From contig NZ_FQLR01000004.1 in the NCBI RefSeq assembly GCF_900119895.1, forward strand, positions 682,001 through 746,000: 64,000 nt of DNA. The letters run 5' to 3'. This stretch comes from Collinsella phocaeensis (GTDB lineage Bacteria; Actinomycetota; Coriobacteriia; Coriobacteriales; Coriobacteriaceae). The notes beneath the pieces are model-generated. The model worked only from the letters and a program-made list of their open reading frames with translations. It had not been told where the DNA came from and did no database searches. A program made the translations under genes and the position numbers. Numbering within the stretch: position 1 is the stretch's first letter; the number at the start of each line of letters is the position of its first letter. Shown piece after piece: positions 1,487 through 32,216 of the stretch.

Positions 1487-2593
1487 ATGGCGGTTTACGC
1501 ACACATCAACTCCGTGCCGAACGGCTCGACCGGCGGCATAATGATGAGGCGTCATCGCGAGCTTCTGGAGGCGGGGCATGAGTCCCATGCGTTCTGGGGG
1601 CGCGGTAGGCGCGGGGGCGATGATCGGGAGCATAGGTTCGCGACCGATGCGGAAGTGAATTTCGATGTGTTGCAGACACGCCTCGACGGGAGGGCGGGCT
1701 TCCATTCAAAGGTTGCGACGGGGCGCCTTCTCTCGAAGCTGGATGAGGTACGCCCCGACGTCGTCTGCCTGCACAATCTTCATGGCTACTACCTGAATAT
1801 CGAAATGTTATTCGAGTGGCTTGTTGGGCACGATTGTCATGTTGAATGGACTTTGCACGACTGCTGGGCGTTCACCGGTCATTGCGCGCACTTTACATAT
1901 GCGGAGTGCGAGCAATGGCGGTCTCATTGCGCATATTCGGGGGGCTGCCCTCAACTCGATACCTACCCCAAGACGATATGCGGGCGGAGCTGTTTCAGGA
2001 ACTTCACGGACAAGAGGCGGATCTTCACGAGCGTCCCGCTGGAGAGGATGACGCTGATCACTCCGTCCCACTGGCTGGAGGGCCTCGTGAGGCAGAGCTT
2101 CCTCGGAGGATACCCGGTGGAGGTGCGCCACAACACCGTGGATAAGTCGGTATTCAAGCCGACTCCTTCTGATTTCCGTGAGCGCTACGGCATCGGCGAC
2201 CGCTTCATGATCCTGGGCGTCGCGAGCCCGTGGACGGATCGCAAGGGGCTCGGGGATTTCGTTCGGCTGGCCGGGGAGCTCGATTCGGATAAGTTTGCGA
2301 TTGTGCTCGTCGGACTCTCCGAAAGGCAGGTAAGGGCGCTTCCCGAAGGCGTCATCGGTCTTACGCGGACGGATTCACCTCAAGAGCTTGCTGAGATCTA
2401 TTCGACCGCGGATATTTTCTTTAACCCCACACGTGAGGATAACTATCCGACTGTGAACCTCGAGGCAGAAGCGTGTGGTACGCCAGTGCTTACTTATTTG
2501 ACCGGAGGATGTTCTGAGACCATCGGCTTGGATGGAAGTTCGACAGCATGCGACTACGATAGCGCGCTGACGATAATTAGGGATATACGATGA
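1487..2593 (+). CDS. Family 4 glycosyltransferase
   Basis: A 368-residue cytoplasmic glycosyltransferase of the GT4/GT-B type, probably adding one sugar of the surface glycan repeat unit. The N-terminal half has NGSTGGIMMRRHRELLEAGH and the central HDCWAFTGHCAHF motif typical of colanic-acid-type GT4 enzymes. The C-terminal half has GVASPWTDRKGLGDF, VGLSERQV and the nucleotide-sugar-binding end region NPTREDNYPTVNLEAEACGTP. The ATG at 1487 lies 2 bp after the capG stop. The C-terminus is rather short for the family, ending soon after TGGCSETIGLDG. The stop overlaps the next start by 4 bp (ATGA), indicating translational coupling. Base composition turns AT-richer through this gene. The acceptor and donor cannot be read from the sequence. 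Confidence 0.88.
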   Translation: MAVYAHINSVPNGSTGGIMMRRHRELLEAGHESHAFWGRGRRGGDDREHRFATDAEVNFDVLQTRLDGRAGFHSKVATGRLLSKLDEVRPDVVCLHNLHGYYLNIEMLFEWLVGHDCHVEWTLHDCWAFTGHCAHFTYAECEQWRSHCAYSGGCPQLDTYPKTICGRSCFRNFTDKRRIFTSVPLERMTLITPSHWLEGLVRQSFLGGYPVEVRHNTVDKSVFKPTPSDFRERYGIGDRFMILGVASPWTDRKGLGDFVRLAGELDSDKFAIVLVGLSERQVRALPEGVIGLTRTDSPQELAEIYSTADIFFNPTREDNYPTVNLEAEACGTPVLTYLTGGCSETIGLDGSSTACDYDSALTIIRDIR

Positions 2594-3720
2594 GTCCATA
2601 CCTTGTATTGCTGGTATTTCTGATAATGATGGGAATCGCTGGCTTTAATCCTAAAATAGAGAACCTATCGTACAAGTTGTCCTTTTTGATCTTGACCGTG
2701 ATGCTAGTATTTCGATTTGGTCAGGGAACGGATTGGCTCTCGTACAATTACATCTATTCTATTGCTCCTGCTGAAATCGATTTTCATCACTTTTTTTATT
2801 CGGATTTGGTTCACAGCGAAGTCGGATGGAAGTTAATCTGCAATATCTTTAAGGTTTTCGACTTAGATTTTGTGCACCTATCAATCGCTTGCGCATTGGT
2901 AGAGATGTTTGCGCTCAATCGCTTCCTGACGGAGAACTCCACTAACCGTTCGCTCAGTTTGGTGATCGCGTATCCGACCGTATATCTCACGTATTTTTTT
3001 TCAAGTATGCGTCAGGGATTGGTCATTGCTATTTTTCTAGGAATGCTAATCGGTTGCTTGAGAAGGGGCAAGTTTCTCCGTTATTCGCTTCTCGTCTTGT
3101 TGCTCTCGACGATTCATTCGATGGCCCTGTTACTCCTGATCCTCCCGTTCGTTATCAGATACCCCGTAAAGCAGATGTTCTCGGTCCTGTCGGTTTCCGC
3201 GCTGATTGGAATATGCCTGGTTCCGGTTATGCCGTCATTGATGCGAATGGTTGGGTTGTCATATGTGGACAGCTCCATTTCAATTCCTGCCGTGTGTTAC
3301 AGGCTGTTAAGCGCCGCGATAGTTTATTTTTCATATACAGCGAATGAGGGTGATGATTCGGAGTCCGACCCCGAGCTCGCACTATTGCTTAAACTGTATC
3401 TCGCCGGTCTTTCGGTATACGCTCTCGCCGTCGCAAGCGATATTATGGCAAGTAGACTGGCCTCCCCCTTGTTGTCAATCGAGATTGCCATTGTGCCGAC
3501 ATTGCTTCAGCGTGGTTCCAAGCACCTGCTGCCTCCGTTGGTTTGCCTGGTTATCGCGAGTTCGGCCTTTATGACTGTCAAGAATATAGACAGCTACATC
3601 AAGCAAGGGCATTACGCTTACGGCGTGACCGTTGCCAGCTATCCATATATCAACTATTTCAACAAAGAGGATATTTTTCAGTATACAGCCAATCCGTATC
3701 TGGCGTACCTAGATATCTAG
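2590..3720 (+). CDS. EpsG-family oligosaccharide repeat-unit polymerase (Wzy-like)
   Basis: A 376-residue, strongly hydrophobic protein with about ten predicted membrane segments. It resembles the EpsG family, inner-membrane polymerases that join lipid-linked repeat units. Supporting features are FRFGQGTDWLSYNYIY near residue 40, an SSMRQGLVIAIFLGML segment near residue 138 (the conserved Arg-Gln of the family) and STIHSMALLLLILPF. It sits between a glycosyltransferase and the flippase, where the polymerase is normally found. The gene is clearly AT-richer than the rest of the chromosome, as is common for exchangeable polymerase genes. It overlaps the preceding gene by 4 bp and is followed by a 168-bp gap that seems to hold only short degenerate sequence. 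Confidence 0.82.
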   Translation: MSPYLVLLVFLIMMGIAGFNPKIENLSYKLSFLILTVMLVFRFGQGTDWLSYNYIYSIAPAEIDFHHFFYSDLVHSEVGWKLICNIFKVFDLDFVHLSIACALVEMFALNRFLTENSTNRSLSLVIAYPTVYLTYFFSSMRQGLVIAIFLGMLIGCLRRGKFLRYSLLVLLLSTIHSMALLLLILPFVIRYPVKQMFSVLSVSALIGICLVPVMPSLMRMVGLSYVDSSISIPAVCYRLLSAAIVYFSYTANEGDDSESDPELALLLKLYLAGLSVYALAVASDIMASRLASPLLSIEIAIVPTLLQRGSKHLLPPLVCLVIASSAFMTVKNIDSYIKQGHYAYGVTVASYPYINYFNKEDIFQYTANPYLAYLDI

Positions 3721-3888
3721 GTACAGCAATGGTCGGGGATGGCGGTGGCGGAGAGTGGGCTTTATGGGCAGATGCGATATATCGAAAAATAGCACTGGAC
3801 GCCGTTTTGCGATTGAAATGATTGGGGCGAATTTGACGCTCGGGTTCTGTCGGGCAAGGCAAGTTGAGCAATTCGGAGCTGTTCATTG

Positions 3889-5133
3889 ATGAAGACGAAG
3901 CATAAGACCTTCTACAGCAATGTAGTCTGGCAATATGGCTTGCAGCTAATCAAGTATGTAATGCCGCTGCTCACCCTGCCGTACCTCACGCGCGTGCTCG
4001 AGCCGGAGGGTTATGCGGTGTACGCCTACGTCGTGTCGTTCATGACGTTTGCACAGACCTTCGTGGAGTTCGGGTTCAACCTATCGGGCACCAAACAGGT
4101 GGTCGAGGTGCGCGACGCGCGCGAGCTCGGGCGCGTCACGGGTTCCATCACGCAGGCGAGGCTTGCCCTCTGCGTGGTTGCCGGTGTCGCCTGCGCGATC
4201 GTAGGCGCGTTCATCCCGATCATGCGCGACAACGCGCTCTACGCGTGCCTGGCCTACATTGCGGTGTGCGGACGTGCGCTTGCGCCGGACTTCCTCTTCC
4301 AGGGCAAGGAGAGGATGGCGCCGATCACGGTGCGATATTTTGTTTCTAAGGGCACTTCCACGGCTCTCACGTTTGTGTTTGTTCATTCCGTTGCCGACAT
4401 CCTATGGGTGCCGGTGCTCGATATAGCGGCGAGCGCTATTGCGCTCGCATGGTCGTTCTCCGCAGCTCGCAAGATGTTCGGGCTCAAGATCGAGTGGGTG
4501 GCGCCGCACGTGTACCTCAAGGAGCTCGCGCGCTCGGGTTACTACTGCCTGTCCAACATGAGCAGCACCGCGTTCAGCGGTTTCACCACGCTGCTTATAG
4601 GCGTCGCCATCAAAGATCCTGCCCAGATCTCCTACTGGTCGCTATCCATGACGGCGATAGGGGCGGTGCAGTCGCTCTACAGCCCCATCATCAACAGCTT
4701 GTACCCGCACATGGTGGCGCAGAGCGATTTCGGCTTCGCCAAGCGGCTGGCGTTCATATCGGTGCCGTTCGTGTTCGGCGGTACGGCGCTGTTCTTCGCG
4801 CTGTCCGAATTCATCATGCTCGTGCTGGGCGGCACGGAATACCTGCCGGGTGCTTACGTGTTGCGCCTCGTGACCCCGGTCCTGGTTTTCTCGTTCTACG
4901 GGATGTTCTTCGGATGGCCAGTGCTGGGCGCGGTGGGCAGGGTGAAGGAGCTCACGGCAACCACCCTCGTCTCATCGGTTGCGAGCATCGTGGTCCTGGT
5001 CGCGGTGACGGCCGCGGGCATGGCAAGCGTTGCGGTCTTCGCGGTAGTGCGCAGCCTCACCGAGGCGTTCATGTGCGCGCTCAGGCTCAACGAGTGTCGC
5101 AAGGCGTTTCGAATTAAAAAAGGAAGGCTGTAG
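3889..5133 (+). CDS. Wzx-type oligosaccharide flippase (MOP superfamily)
   Basis: A 414-residue polytopic protein with about 12 predicted membrane segments. It should flip the undecaprenyl-linked repeat unit across the membrane. The N-terminal pattern (YSNVVWQYGLQLIKYVMPLL then LTLPYLTRVLEPEGYAVYAY) is characteristic of polysaccharide biosynthesis flippases, as is LPYLTRVL followed by GxYAVYAYVVSF. The ATG at 3889 has GGAG about 10 bp upstream; an in-frame TTG at 3886 is the alternative start. Together with the upstream EpsG-like polymerase it implies a Wzx/Wzy-dependent assembly route. It is followed after 4 bp by licD. The substrate glycan is unknown. Confidence 0.87.
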   Translation: MKTKHKTFYSNVVWQYGLQLIKYVMPLLTLPYLTRVLEPEGYAVYAYVVSFMTFAQTFVEFGFNLSGTKQVVEVRDARELGRVTGSITQARLALCVVAGVACAIVGAFIPIMRDNALYACLAYIAVCGRALAPDFLFQGKERMAPITVRYFVSKGTSTALTFVFVHSVADILWVPVLDIAASAIALAWSFSAARKMFGLKIEWVAPHVYLKELARSGYYCLSNMSSTAFSGFTTLLIGVAIKDPAQISYWSLSMTAIGAVQSLYSPIINSLYPHMVAQSDFGFAKRLAFISVPFVFGGTALFFALSEFIMLVLGGTEYLPGAYVLRLVTPVLVFSFYGMFFGWPVLGAVGRVKELTATTLVSSVASIVVLVAVTAAGMASVAVFAVVRSLTEAFMCALRLNECRKAFRIKKGRL

Positions 5134-29741: not shown

Positions 29742-30761
29742 TCAGTGCTTCCCGGCGTCCCGCACGATCTGGACGACCTCCGCCATGCGAGCGTCGATGC
29801 GGTCGCGCTTGAGCTCGCATTCCCAGATGACGATCGGCGTCCAGCCCATCGCCTTCAGGTCGTCGAGGGCGCGCCGGTCCCGCTCCACGTTGCGGCGGAA
29901 CTTCGCCTCCCAGAACTCCACGTTGCGCTTCGGGACGCTGGGGTTGCAGTGCGGGCAGCGGTGCCAGAAGCAGCCGTTGACGAAGATGGCCACGCGGCGC
30001 CCGGGAAACGCGATGTCGGGCCTGCCGGGCGCCTTGCTCCACTGGAGCCGGTAGCCGGTGAGGCCCGCATCGCGCAGCGCGCGCCGCACGAGCATCTCGG
30101 GCTTGGTGTCGGCGCGCCTGTTGCCCTTCATCGAGCGCTTGATGGCCGCCCGCCGCCGGACGAGTTCGACTTCGCTATCCGTGAGCGCCGTTGTGTCCAC
30201 GCCGGCGAGCAGGTCGGCCGGGCGCTTGCGGGATCGCTTGGCGCTCCTGCGCCTTTTTCCCGAAGCCTTCGATCGGGAGGCCTGATGCCTCGCGACGTCG
30301 CGCTCGCCTGCTGCCGTCTCGTCCCCGTCAGCCGCGTCGGCCTCTGCGCTTCCCGCGCTTGCCGCAAGGGTGTGCACGAGGTCGACATCCGCCGGCATCC
30401 AGGCGAGCTCATCGAGCTCGCCTCGCCGCACCCAGCGGATGTCCTGCTGCCGATCGCGCGCCTCGGGCGTTGCGAGGGCGTCCTCATCGCTCAGACGGCA
30501 GAAGAAGCACTCCATCGAGAGATGGAAGTCGGGATAGTCGTATTCCACGGTGTAGAAGGCCTGCATGCTCGTTACAGTGAGACCGAGCTCCTCGAGAAGC
30601 TCGCGCCGGCAGGCGTCCTCGGCGGTCTCGCCGCGCTCGACCTTGCCGCCCGGGAACTCCCAGAGCCCTGCCATCTCGCCGTATCCGCGCTGCACGGCGA
30701 GCAGCTCCTCGCCCGAATTGCCGCGTCGGATGATGCCGGCGGCCACATGAATGGTTTTCAC
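29742..30761 (-). CDS. NUDIX hydrolase (MutT-like) fused to a Vsr-type endonuclease
   Basis: A 339-residue two-domain protein. Residues 1 to about 145 are a MutT-like NUDIX domain: HVAAGIIRRG, then the Nudix box G-x5-E-x7-RELLEELGL at about 39-61, typical of enzymes that hydrolyse oxidised dNTPs. A very basic linker with SGKRRRSAKRSRKRP follows. Residues from about 205 are a Vsr very-short-patch repair endonuclease: GNRRADTKPEMLVRRALRDA, GRPDIAFPGRRVAIFVNG with the catalytic Asp, CFWHRCPHC with the metal-binding His and Cys, and a final GWTPIVIWECEL. Both domains look intact. The GTG at 30761 is chosen because it begins the NUDIX domain; upstream in-frame sequence is not conserved-looking. 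Known Vsr proteins cut at T:G mismatches from deaminated methylcytosine; no cytosine methylase gene lies nearby. Confidence 0.9.
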   Translation of the reverse strand: MKTIHVAAGIIRRGNSGEELLAVQRGYGEMAGLWEFPGGKVERGETAEDACRRELLEELGLTVTSMQAFYTVEYDYPDFHLSMECFFCRLSDEDALATPEARDRQQDIRWVRRGELDELAWMPADVDLVHTLAASAGSAEADAADGDETAAGERDVARHQASRSKASGKRRRSAKRSRKRPADLLAGVDTTALTDSEVELVRRRAAIKRSMKGNRRADTKPEMLVRRALRDAGLTGYRLQWSKAPGRPDIAFPGRRVAIFVNGCFWHRCPHCNPSVPKRNVEFWEAKFRRNVERDRRALDDLKAMGWTPIVIWECELKRDRIDARMAEVVQIVRDAGKH

Positions 30762-31074
30762 GCCCGTTTTCGACCTTTCCCGTAGGTGAACCGTCCACCA
30801 GTGTACGCACGACGCCCGCCCGCGACAAACCATGTTCCCTGGGTCCGAGTTGTCGGCCCCAATGGCTGGCCAGGCCGTACCCCTCTGGACGGGCCGCCGA
30901 CTTCCGCCCCAATGGCTGCGCGCCCTTGTCGCGAGCAGCTCGTCCCCGGTACCCCGGCCCTTGGCCCTCTTAAGACCTTGCTAACCAACCTTACAAAAGC
31001 GCAAGGACGGTGTAAGGCAAATCGATGGCAGCCAAAAGCGGCTCCTGAGACTATACGGTCAGGAGGTGATTGCC
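30762..31074. other. Divergent intergenic region, NUDIX-Vsr / small membrane peptide
   Basis: About 310 bp that must carry the promoter of the NUDIX-Vsr gene on one strand and of the small membrane protein and ABC genes on the other. The stretch at 30965-31030 (CTTGCTAACC, ACAAAAGCGC, AAGGACGGTGTAAGG) is AT-richer and the best place for the forward promoter. No dyad operator was recognised. Confidence 0.4.
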
Positions 31075-31248
31075 ATGAAGGCAACGAATGAGTACATGGA
31101 TGGACGTCGACTGGGATACAGCCCGTACGACGTCGCACCGGAGCAGTCCGGGGCGGGCATGAGCGCGGTCGAGATGTTGCTCTCCCTGTTCATCATGGCC
31201 GCGCTGTCGATCGGCATGATCTGGCTCCTGTCGACGTGCAAGCACTGA
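31075..31248 (+). CDS. Small single-pass membrane protein (57 residues)
   Basis: A short gene with an unusually good ribosome binding site, AGGAGGT at 31061-31067, 7 bp before the ATG. The product has a charged, hydrophilic N-terminal half (MKATNEYMDGRRLGYSPYD) and one C-terminal membrane helix, SAVEMLLSLFIMAALSIGMI. It ends Leu-Leu-Ser-Thr-Cys-Lys-His. The BceAB-like ABC transporter starts 62 bp downstream on the same strand. It may be a regulator or accessory subunit of that transporter, or an unrelated small membrane protein. No family is recognised. Confidence 0.7.
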   Translation: MKATNEYMDGRRLGYSPYDVAPEQSGAGMSAVEMLLSLFIMAALSIGMIWLLSTCKH

Positions 31249-31310
31249 TCGCGCGTCGTCGGATTTCGGCATACTGCAATAGGGACACCCTGAAGAGAAA
31301 CGAGACGAAC

Positions 31311-32216
31311 ATGAACGAAGCATCCCCGATCAACCCCATGGTCGCAGCGAGCGGCCGCCAGGTGGCGGCCGCCCATGCGCGCCCCGCGTCCGATGTGCCC
31401 GCGACCGGTCCGGTCCGCACGGGCGGCGCGGCGGTCGGCAGCGCCATCGGCACGCCCGTCCTGGAGGTCGTGCACCTCGAGAAGGTCTACGGCGCCCGGG
31501 GCAACGTGACGCGCGCCCTGGAGGACGTCTCCTTTACCGTGAGCAGAGGCGAGTTCGTCGGCATCATGGGCGCGTCGGGCTCCGGCAAGTCGACGCTCCT
31601 CAACTGCGTCTCCACGATCGACTCCGCCACGAGCGGAAGCGTGGTCGTGAACGGTGCGGACGTCACGCGCATGAAGGCCGCCAAGCTCGCGAAGTTCCGC
31701 CGCGAGCAGCTGGGCTTCATCTTCCAGGATTCCAACCTGCTGGACACGCTCACGGCTCGCGAGAACATCGCCCTGCCGCTCACGATCGCCCGCGTCCCTG
31801 CGCGCGAGGTGTCGGTGCGCGTCGAGGACGTCGCGATGCGCCTCAACATCTCGGCGGTGCTCGACAAGTACCCGTACCAGATGTCCGGCGGCCAGCAGCA
31901 GCGCGTCGCCGCTGCGCGCGCGCTGGTGACCGACCCGGCGCTCATCATGGCCGACGAGCCCACCGGCGCGCTCGACTCCAAGAACGCCCGCCTGCTGCTC
32001 GAGAGCTTCGAGACCATGAACCGTCAGTACCAGGCGACGGTGCTCATGGTCACGCACGACAGCTTCGCCGCCAGCTACACCAATCGCGTGCTCTTCATCC
32101 GCGACGGCAAGATCTTCACCGAGCTGCGCCGCGGCGACAGCCCGCGCCGCGCGTTTTTCGACCGCATCATGGAGGTCGTCGCGATGATGGGTGGGGAGGG
32201 CTCCGATGCTCTGTAA
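31311..32216 (+). CDS. ABC transporter ATP-binding protein (BceA/MacB-like)
   Basis: A 301-residue ATPase of the MacB/BceA group, partner of the FtsX-type permease that follows. Seen: Walker A GASGSGKST (about residue 89), Q-loop FIFQDSNLLDTLTAREN, signature MSGGQQQRVAAARAL, Walker B ALIMADEPTGALDSKN and the His switch VTHDSFAASY. The first 50 or so residues are an Ala/Pro-rich extension absent from typical BceA proteins. The stop overlaps the permease start (ATGCTCTGTAA), showing translational coupling. BceAB systems export or remove cell-wall-active peptides and are often run by a neighbouring BceRS two-component system, which is not seen here. Confidence 0.92.
   Translation: MNEASPINPMVAASGRQVAAAHARPASDVPATGPVRTGGAAVGSAIGTPVLEVVHLEKVYGARGNVTRALEDVSFTVSRGEFVGIMGASGSGKSTLLNCVSTIDSATSGSVVVNGADVTRMKAAKLAKFRREQLGFIFQDSNLLDTLTARENIALPLTIARVPAREVSVRVEDVAMRLNISAVLDKYPYQMSGGQQQRVAAARALVTDPALIMADEPTGALDSKNARLLLESFETMNRQYQATVLMVTHDSFAASYTNRVLFIRDGKIFTELRRGDSPRRAFFDRIMEVVAMMGGEGSDAL

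Follow-up and report, generated by a model that had tools for sequence, protein, structure and literature searches.

The window analyzed here, a 64,000-nucleotide stretch of the Collinsella phocaeensis genome (RefSeq assembly GCF_900119895.1, contig NZ_FQLR01000004.1, positions 682,001 to 746,000 of the forward strand), encodes on its minus strand a protein in which a MutT-type Nudix domain is fused to a Vsr-type mismatch endonuclease domain. With a probability that we put at roughly 0.7, this protein is a bifunctional mutation-avoidance enzyme that would join a nucleotide-pool hydrolase to an orphan T:G nickase through a loose tether. Judging from the families to which the two domains belong, the Nudix domain would convert mutagenic nucleoside triphosphates to their monophosphates by hydrolysis, keeping them from DNA polymerase, and the Vsr domain would recognize T:G pairs in duplex DNA and nick beside the T via a metal site formed by E222, D249, H267 and D295, after which nick translation would convert T:G back to C:G. 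In doing so, the Vsr half would be an orphan and would not be paired with any single resident cytosine methylase. We infer both activities, the T:G substrate and the in vivo role from sequence. An initial annotation of this DNA had already proposed a union of pool cleaning and mismatch incision; the architecture, with conserved active sites, stands in the analysis described below, whereas the assignment of 8-oxo-dGTP as the substrate and the retargeting of Vsr to lesions are not supported as stated.

The gene, the product of which has a computed mass of about 38 kDa, consists of 339 codons plus a stop (29742..30761, minus strand, as are all features of the fusion listed below) and runs as a single open frame from a GTG start at 30761 to the stop at 29742-29744. 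Among the 98 genomes searched, which comprise the 2.1-Mb genome of C. phocaeensis and those of its relatives, 54 carry the fusion as the same single frame, so that chance or an assembly error was rejected as an explanation; together with the profile matches given below, this bears out the initial description of one continuous gene with a Nudix box, a basic linker and a Vsr domain. The frame stays open upstream of the GTG as far as an ATG at 30833, but the GTG fits better as the start because a start codon is present at the aligned position in 52 of the 54 fused genes (26 TTG, 14 ATG and 12 GTG) and because the Collinsella aerofaciens orthologue is annotated from a TTG at this very place, as ‘DNA mismatch endonuclease Vsr’ with the Nudix half unmentioned. 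An internal start yielding two separate proteins, which the initial annotation had named as an outcome that would undo the fusion, was looked for and rejected: there is no conserved start in the linker, and none of the in-frame starts among codons 111-211 of the window gene, codons 122, 201 and 211 included, has a visible ribosome-binding site in the preceding 18 bases. The only family-invariant start codon in this interval, M211, aligns with M14 of Escherichia coli Vsr, inside the Vsr domain; codon 122, an ATG in 53 of the 54 genes, encodes the M of the WMPAD motif inside the Nudix domain, and codon 201 is GTG in 34 of them.

The Nudix domain (residues 2-134; 30360..30758) matches PF00293 with 77 bits (cut-off 21.1). 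In its Nudix box (residues 39-61, GKVERGETAEDACRRELLEELGL; 30579..30647), G39, E45, R53, E54, E57 and E58 are each retained in all 54 fused proteins, and the last glycine of the box, G60, varies (Q in 35 proteins and G in 4). The best-scoring NCBIfam Nudix models are MutT and PRK08999; the MutT equivalog TIGR00586 scores 90.6 bits (91.9 with M as the first residue), below its cut-off of 97.9, and all 31 members of set A1 match it at E 1e-8 or better. The NudG equivalog PRK10546 scores 60.7 bits, far below its cut-off of 156, and no curated MutT2 model is among the profile matches. The closest structural matches are 3r03 (Z 18.9, rmsd 1.9, 128 aligned residues), MutT 3a6t (Z 18.1, rmsd 2.1, 126 aligned) and MutT2 with 5-methyl-dCTP, 5zro (Z 17.4, rmsd 2.2, 126 aligned), so that, going by the structure model, MutT and MutT2 are tied. 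The base pocket contains WMPAD (residues 121-125; 30387..30401) in 50 of the 54 fused proteins, W121 being present in all 54 and D125 in 52 (N in the other 2). At the same place, MutT has FPPAN with N119, MutT2 (5zrc) has WVPAD and E. coli NudG has PAD. Thus, E. coli MutT shares with the fused domain the fold and the Nudix box and differs in N119 versus D125, with the window protein falling under the MutT cut-off; E. coli NudG shares the MutT fold and P-A-D; and Mycobacterium smegmatis MutT2 (5zrc-5zrp) shares the MutT fold and W-x-P-A-D, with 37-39% identity to the fused Nudix domain in structural alignments. Unlike the fused domain, NudG and MutT2 are standalone proteins.

The substrate that the initial annotation had given for this domain, 8-oxo-dGTP, loses ground with the score below the MutT cut-off and with WMPAD, including D125, where MutT has FPPAN with N119. 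An alternative that we consider distinctly unlikely is a two-sided safeguard for 5-methylcytosine, with a MutT2/NudG-like Nudix domain destroying 5-methyl-dCTP (or oxidized dCTP) and the Vsr domain repairing T:G that arises from deaminated 5-methylcytosine, so that the two domains would counter a single mutagenic path. Human MTH1, an enzyme acting on 8-oxo-dGTP and 2-OH-dATP, also has a pocket with W and D; this similarity speaks against such a safeguard, and 8-oxo-dGTP is therefore still a possible substrate. E. coli NudG, which has the PAD, is listed with 5-methyl-dCTP as its likely substrate in an excerpt of PMC5158307, but MutT2 digests other deoxynucleoside triphosphates too, dCTP included (excerpt of PMC10742078), and the profile scores favor MutT over NudG (90.6 versus 60.7 bits). 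Furthermore, nearly all standalone paralogues compared in the order carry W-x-P-A-D, so that the motif is not specific to the fusion and probably predates it. Overall, both 8-oxo-dGTP and 5-methyl- or oxidized dCTP appear possible as substrates of the pool hydrolase that we favor. In at least 40 of the 54 fused genomes, the fusion itself is the sole MutT-like match at E 0.001; 10 genomes have a standalone paralogue (G000, G002, G003, G005, G012, G013, G015, G020, G030 and G049), G023 and G037 have one further weak match each, in G044 both MutT-like matches lie within the fused locus, and G022 has a second match that is not among the matches listed.

The Vsr domain (residues 204-320; 29802..30152) matches PF03852 with 67 bits (cut-off 27), the NCBIfam model vsr, TIGR00632, with 111.6 bits (cut-off 97.85) and the sequence of 1cw0 with a phmmer E-value of 5e-22; all 43 members of set A2 match TIGR00632 at E 0.001 or better. 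The motifs GRPDIAF and CFWHRCPHC, already noted in the initial annotation, are present in the window protein. Four cysteines, C264, C269, C272 and C315, are invariant in all 54 fused proteins and fall in the zinc-site region of E. coli Vsr. M14, E25, D51, H69 and D97 of E. coli Vsr align with M211, E222, D249 (30015..30017), H267 (29961..29963) and D295 (29877..29879), each retained in 54 of 54 fused proteins; D51 is catalytic, and the roles of the active-site residues of the E. coli enzyme are described in an excerpt of PMC12907096. The W68 position is likewise retained in all 54, and the F67 position is F in 49 and Y in 5.

A fold search with the whole protein covered mainly the Nudix half; hence, the Vsr half was folded separately. 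The resulting model (pLDDT 89.8) has a structural match in the complex of E. coli Vsr with DNA, 1cw0 (Foldseek E 2.7e-9; VIA Z 16.6, rmsd 3.4, 138 aligned), and the homing-endonuclease domain 3r3p ranks below it (Z 12.2, rmsd 2.3, 96 aligned). E. coli Vsr (V.EcoKDcm; 1cw0, 1vsr) thus has the core, the fold and the Cys-rich site in common with the fused protein; it differs in not being fused to a Nudix domain, in having H64 where the fused protein has N262, and in that vsr overlaps dcm, whereas here there is no C5 methylase. The unfused Vsr proteins of Coriobacteriia (Eggerthellaceae, Atopobiaceae and others) belong to the same lineage as the fused domain, with 51-60% identity (28 unfused A2 rows) and mostly an NGCFWHRC core, but lack the Nudix fusion and occupy other gene neighborhoods. 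V.NgoAXIII / V.Nme18VIP and Caulobacter VsrA, compared by description only, resemble the fused Vsr in a non-His residue at position 64 and in relaxed or unlinked use of methylases; they differ in that V.NgoAXIII-type enzymes have D rather than N at this position and VsrA comes with DUF559, and the excerpts of PMC6116569 and PMC12907096 mention no Nudix part.

Between the two domains lies a linker (residues 135-199; 30165..30359), the second half of which is basic, being rich in Lys and Arg; the structure model has pLDDT below 50 at residues 146-170, and across the 54 fused proteins the linker length ranges from 3 to 111 residues. Among 22 genomes of the C. aerofaciens-like group (229 of 231 pairs, with 2 dropped because dS was below 0.03 or undefined), the median dN/dS is 0.036 for the Nudix domain, 0.023 for the Vsr domain and 0.22 for the linker. 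Purifying selection is strong on both domains and relaxed on the linker; therefore, selection keeps both domains, with the linker serving as a tether. Because the linker is flexible and unconserved, the gain from the fusion would probably be co-production or co-location of the two activities rather than one combined active site.

These properties of the linker also bear on a very improbable scheme close to the retargeting suggested in the initial annotation, namely, that the Nudix domain reads lesions, as the C-terminal domain of MutY does for 8-oxoG, and steers Vsr to oxidized mispairs. The window protein does match NUDIX_4 (PF14815; 70.1 bits), a Pfam family that includes the MutY C-terminal domains, but a linker that is variable and relaxed offers no fixed geometry and argues against a rigid lesion-reading coupling. 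Moreover, the catalytic acids of the Nudix box are invariant, unlike those of a pure reader, and MutY-like matches already exist in 96 of the 98 genomes, although none is over the strict MutY cut-off. With the Nudix catalytic residues kept, the idea of Vsr redirected to oxidized lesions finds no support, and we favor two tethered activities.

Within the family Coriobacteriaceae, the fusion gene comes near to being a core gene. It was found in 42 of the 43 Collinsella genomes and in 12 of the 16 other genomes of the family, the genomes without it being G026 within the genus and G047, G051, G055 and G058 elsewhere in the family, and in 0 of the 39 order-level relatives; an unfused Vsr is encoded in 15 of these (47-64% identity), and a distant one, at 30%, in G060. 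In a scan of named records, which was restricted to stretches containing PDIAFPGR or NGC[FY]WHRC so that fusions to other Vsr types could escape it, the first 56 of the best 80 of 316 relatives are fusions, from Collinsella, Enorma, Candidatus Limicola, Candidatus Coprousia, uncultured Coriobacteriaceae and one metagenome-assembled genome (MAG) labelled Atopobiaceae. The other 24 of these best 80, mainly from Eggerthellaceae and other Coriobacteriia, match in the Vsr part only, and between the fusions and the Vsr-only matches the best E-values fall from 3e-105 to 2e-56. In a sample of 396 genomes from the phylum, the fusion appears at E 1e-25 or better only in the 14 drawn members of Coriobacteriaceae; at most five candidates were scored per genome, so that this sample could have overlooked an independent fusion with a weaker match. 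Coverage of other phyla was limited to the phage, plasmid, named-record and viral-contig searches. The architecture is built from two known kinds of enzyme, and no description of a Nudix-Vsr fusion was found among the papers listed in searches of the open-licence PMC literature.

Both fused halves form a single lineage. In the tree of Vsr domains (20 of the 54 fused sequences, 39 unfused, 9 viral and E. coli), the fused rows are one clade with support 100/98, within a lineage that consists mostly of Coriobacteriia and includes one archaeal MAG row (L152) and one viral row (L170). The L152 sequence, from a Methanomethylophilaceae MAG contig, encodes a Vsr 60% identical to the Coriobacteriia lineage and reflects either transfer or mis-binning. 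In the Nudix tree (30 of the 54 fused sequences, that is, the 31 non-redundant ones less L038, with 21 unfused sequences, MutT and NudG), the fused rows and the orthologue from G026 form one clade with support 100/95. The E. coli rows are long-branched in both trees, and their placement is unsure. An intermediate stage with neighboring Nudix and Vsr genes before the fusion is unsupported, there being no Nudix match in the flanks (a few kilobases) of the 39 unfused Vsr loci. In three order-level genomes (G070, G095 and G078; loci L061, L065 and L069, respectively), unfused Vsr genes share a neighborhood, and G070 and G095 have no C5-methylase match; this group looks like a second orphan Vsr of the order.

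A mobile origin of the fusion was rejected on the basis of phage, plasmid and viral-contig searches. In tblastn searches, none of 44 matching phage records covers 80% of the fusion query, and only 1 of 243 plasmid records does; this record, NZ_OY725717 (H16, L072), is a 900-kb C. aerofaciens replicon that was deposited as ‘plasmid 6’, bears the near-core fusion gene and is probably chromosomal rather than a plasmid. The best 80 of 82 relatives on viral contigs each match one half of the fusion only. One of these contigs (L169) carries a Vsr gene at 4001-4327 and, on the opposite strand about 1.4 kb away, a short Nudix-like fragment (a 102-residue frame). It is extremely improbable that the protein, as a nicking endonuclease joined to a nucleotide hydrolase, serves in anti-phage defense. 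The PADLOC models PDC-S07 (129 bits) and Vsr (74.8 bits) do match it, and Vsr-type genes are present on phages and plasmids, but PDC-S07 scores E. coli MutT (130.7 bits) and NudG (147.3 bits) equally high, and the gene is near-universal in the family, of one lineage and mostly in one neighborhood, which is not the pattern of a variable island. A PDC-S07 call on a Nudix-Vsr gene is therefore not evidence of defense. Given that PDC-S07 (PDLC04899) is unspecific, genes called in this way in genomes may simply encode an ordinary MutT or NudG; in Streptococcus thermophilus, two genes called PDC-S07 are 390 bp long (excerpt of PMC11514479).

Several observations weigh against the reading as a conserved bifunctional enzyme. 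The match begins only at residue 18 in G050 (L038) and at residue 3 in G033 (L050), and both genes lack a start codon at the aligned place, yet they are counted as fused. The fused Nudix rows without the G026 orthologue are supported only at 78/49. G026 itself retains the Nudix half without Vsr, with the ABC transporter gene that accompanies the fusion still nearby, and four family members (genus g6) carry the Nudix and Vsr halves separately; the fusion, not being universal, is therefore not essential. Because the ABC transporter gene is nearby and fusions exist in other genera of the family, G026 most likely lost the Vsr half. At this locus (L055; 3980-5731, minus strand), the Vsr-less Nudix orthologue shares an open frame with an upstream open reading frame, the end of which, GDWGVVYPEER, matches the gene that immediately precedes the fusion gene in L047.

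To the same side belongs the residue at the place of E. coli Vsr H64, which is N262 (29976..29978) in the window protein and N in all 54 fused proteins, and we know of no assayed Vsr with N at this position. Of 21 unfused Vsr places, 15 were fetched, with 11 N, 3 H and 1 R; these 15 are unaffected by the bias of the N count among L131-L170, loci that were fetched by a pattern containing NGC. Active Vsr enzymes vary at position 64, with D in Neisseria V.NgoAXIII (excerpt of PMC12907096). A missing catalytic residue, the other outcome that the initial annotation had named as damaging, thus comes down to this single altered position.

The methylases likewise cut both ways. In the initial annotation, the lack of a nearby cytosine methyltransferase was taken to mean that a Dcm-Vsr pairing was not evident, and a search of the rest of the genome for a Dcm-type methylase was proposed; a profile search for C5-cytosine methyltransferases (PF00145) gave no match in the entire 2.1-Mb genome, hence none in the window. 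Such a match is lacking in 15 of the 54 fused genomes, that of C. phocaeensis included. The other 39 have at least one (G023 a fragment only), which weighs against an orphan role and makes ordinary methylase-coupled repair possible in those genomes. It is accordingly conceivable, albeit unlikely, that the protein performs methylase-coupled very-short-patch repair, with the Vsr half serving passing C5 methylases, mostly of restriction-modification systems, by relaxed specificity, and the Nudix half an unrelated passenger. Multispecific Vsr enzymes exist, the known range extending from the single motif of the E. coli enzyme to all T:G contexts for V.NgoAXIII (excerpt of PMC6116569), and a Vsr gene can lie apart from that of its methylase (excerpt of PMC12907096). 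Conversely, the fusion is near-universal in the family whereas methylases come and go, and G039 is the only genome with a C5 methylase no more than 35 kb away on the contig that carries the fusion, at a distance of 466 bases, with the proviso that contig breaks in draft genomes could hide further nearby methylases. The persistence of Vsr where no methylase was found suggests a relaxed sequence context for the orphan nickase that we favor. A functional objection to an orphan role is that Vsr might, in the absence of methylation marks, cut both strands. According to an excerpt of PMC12907096, loss of the methylase makes VsrA harmful in Caulobacter; strand choice is therefore the critical point for an orphan Vsr.

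Two loci illustrate the surroundings in which methylases do occur. In L047, the G039 locus, a gene for an Eco29kI-type restriction enzyme (PF09517, 164 bits) and one for a C5 methylase (PF00145, 187 bits) adjoin the fusion (1837-3604, minus strand). In G069 (contig C164, L067), an unfused Vsr gene (3551-3934) and a C5 methylase gene (2116-3189) are separated by about 360 bases, a classic-looking methylase-Vsr pair from within the same order.

The divergent neighbor of the fusion gene in the window, a separate gene for the ATP-binding protein of an ABC transporter (31236..32216, plus strand; product name from the C. aerofaciens record), has a homologue within the flank covered at 52 of the 54 fused loci, and in 47 of these the homologue is upstream on the opposite strand. 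The two loci without it are L007, where the flank ends at the contig end, and L051 in G044.

The genomic background of the fusion is one in which, to judge by profile matches, MutS, MutL and NucS are lacking in the class, in agreement with PMC5290159, an excerpt of which reports that all Coriobacteriia analyzed lack NucS and MutS-MutL. A match to MutS_I was found in 1 of the 98 genomes, G036, in a 3249-residue frame that probably encodes a mobile-element-like protein rather than MutS. The 2333 residues fetched from it (L255, G036:C11:108000-115000) comprise two MutS_I stretches alongside helicase-type domains (ResIII and SNF2), and further MutS domains are absent. For MutL, none of 29 genomes has a match over the cut-off, and 28 of the 29 have weak partial matches. 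NucS_C gives partial matches in 21 of the 98 genomes, with 5 genomes slightly exceeding the cut-off; no match extends over more than 55 of 124 positions, and the frames are 161-369 residues long. The C. phocaeensis match scores 20.5 of the required 24 bits, and we read these partial matches as probable other nucleases.

Without competing MutS-MutL or NucS, the enzyme could also correct T:G errors of replication, always towards C:G. A broader and decidedly speculative proposal, one that we regard as doubtful, is that the orphan Vsr lineage of Coriobacteriia, with a relaxed sequence context, is a methylation-independent, GC-biased and strand-blind corrector of T:G that replaces part of mismatch repair and, in Coriobacteriaceae, is fused to a pool hydrolase. 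One protein would then deal both with mutagenic precursors still in the pool and with T:G mispairs already in DNA, adding a third way of avoiding mutations to those of MutS-MutL and NucS. Annotation of these genes as plain ‘vsr’ overlooks the Nudix half. The fused protein is a candidate for part of the control of mutation rate in a lineage without known mismatch-repair systems, a lineage with species from the human gut and with strains in culture, in which the gene is near-universal. The question of how Vsr may be used safely without methylation marks is touched by it as well.

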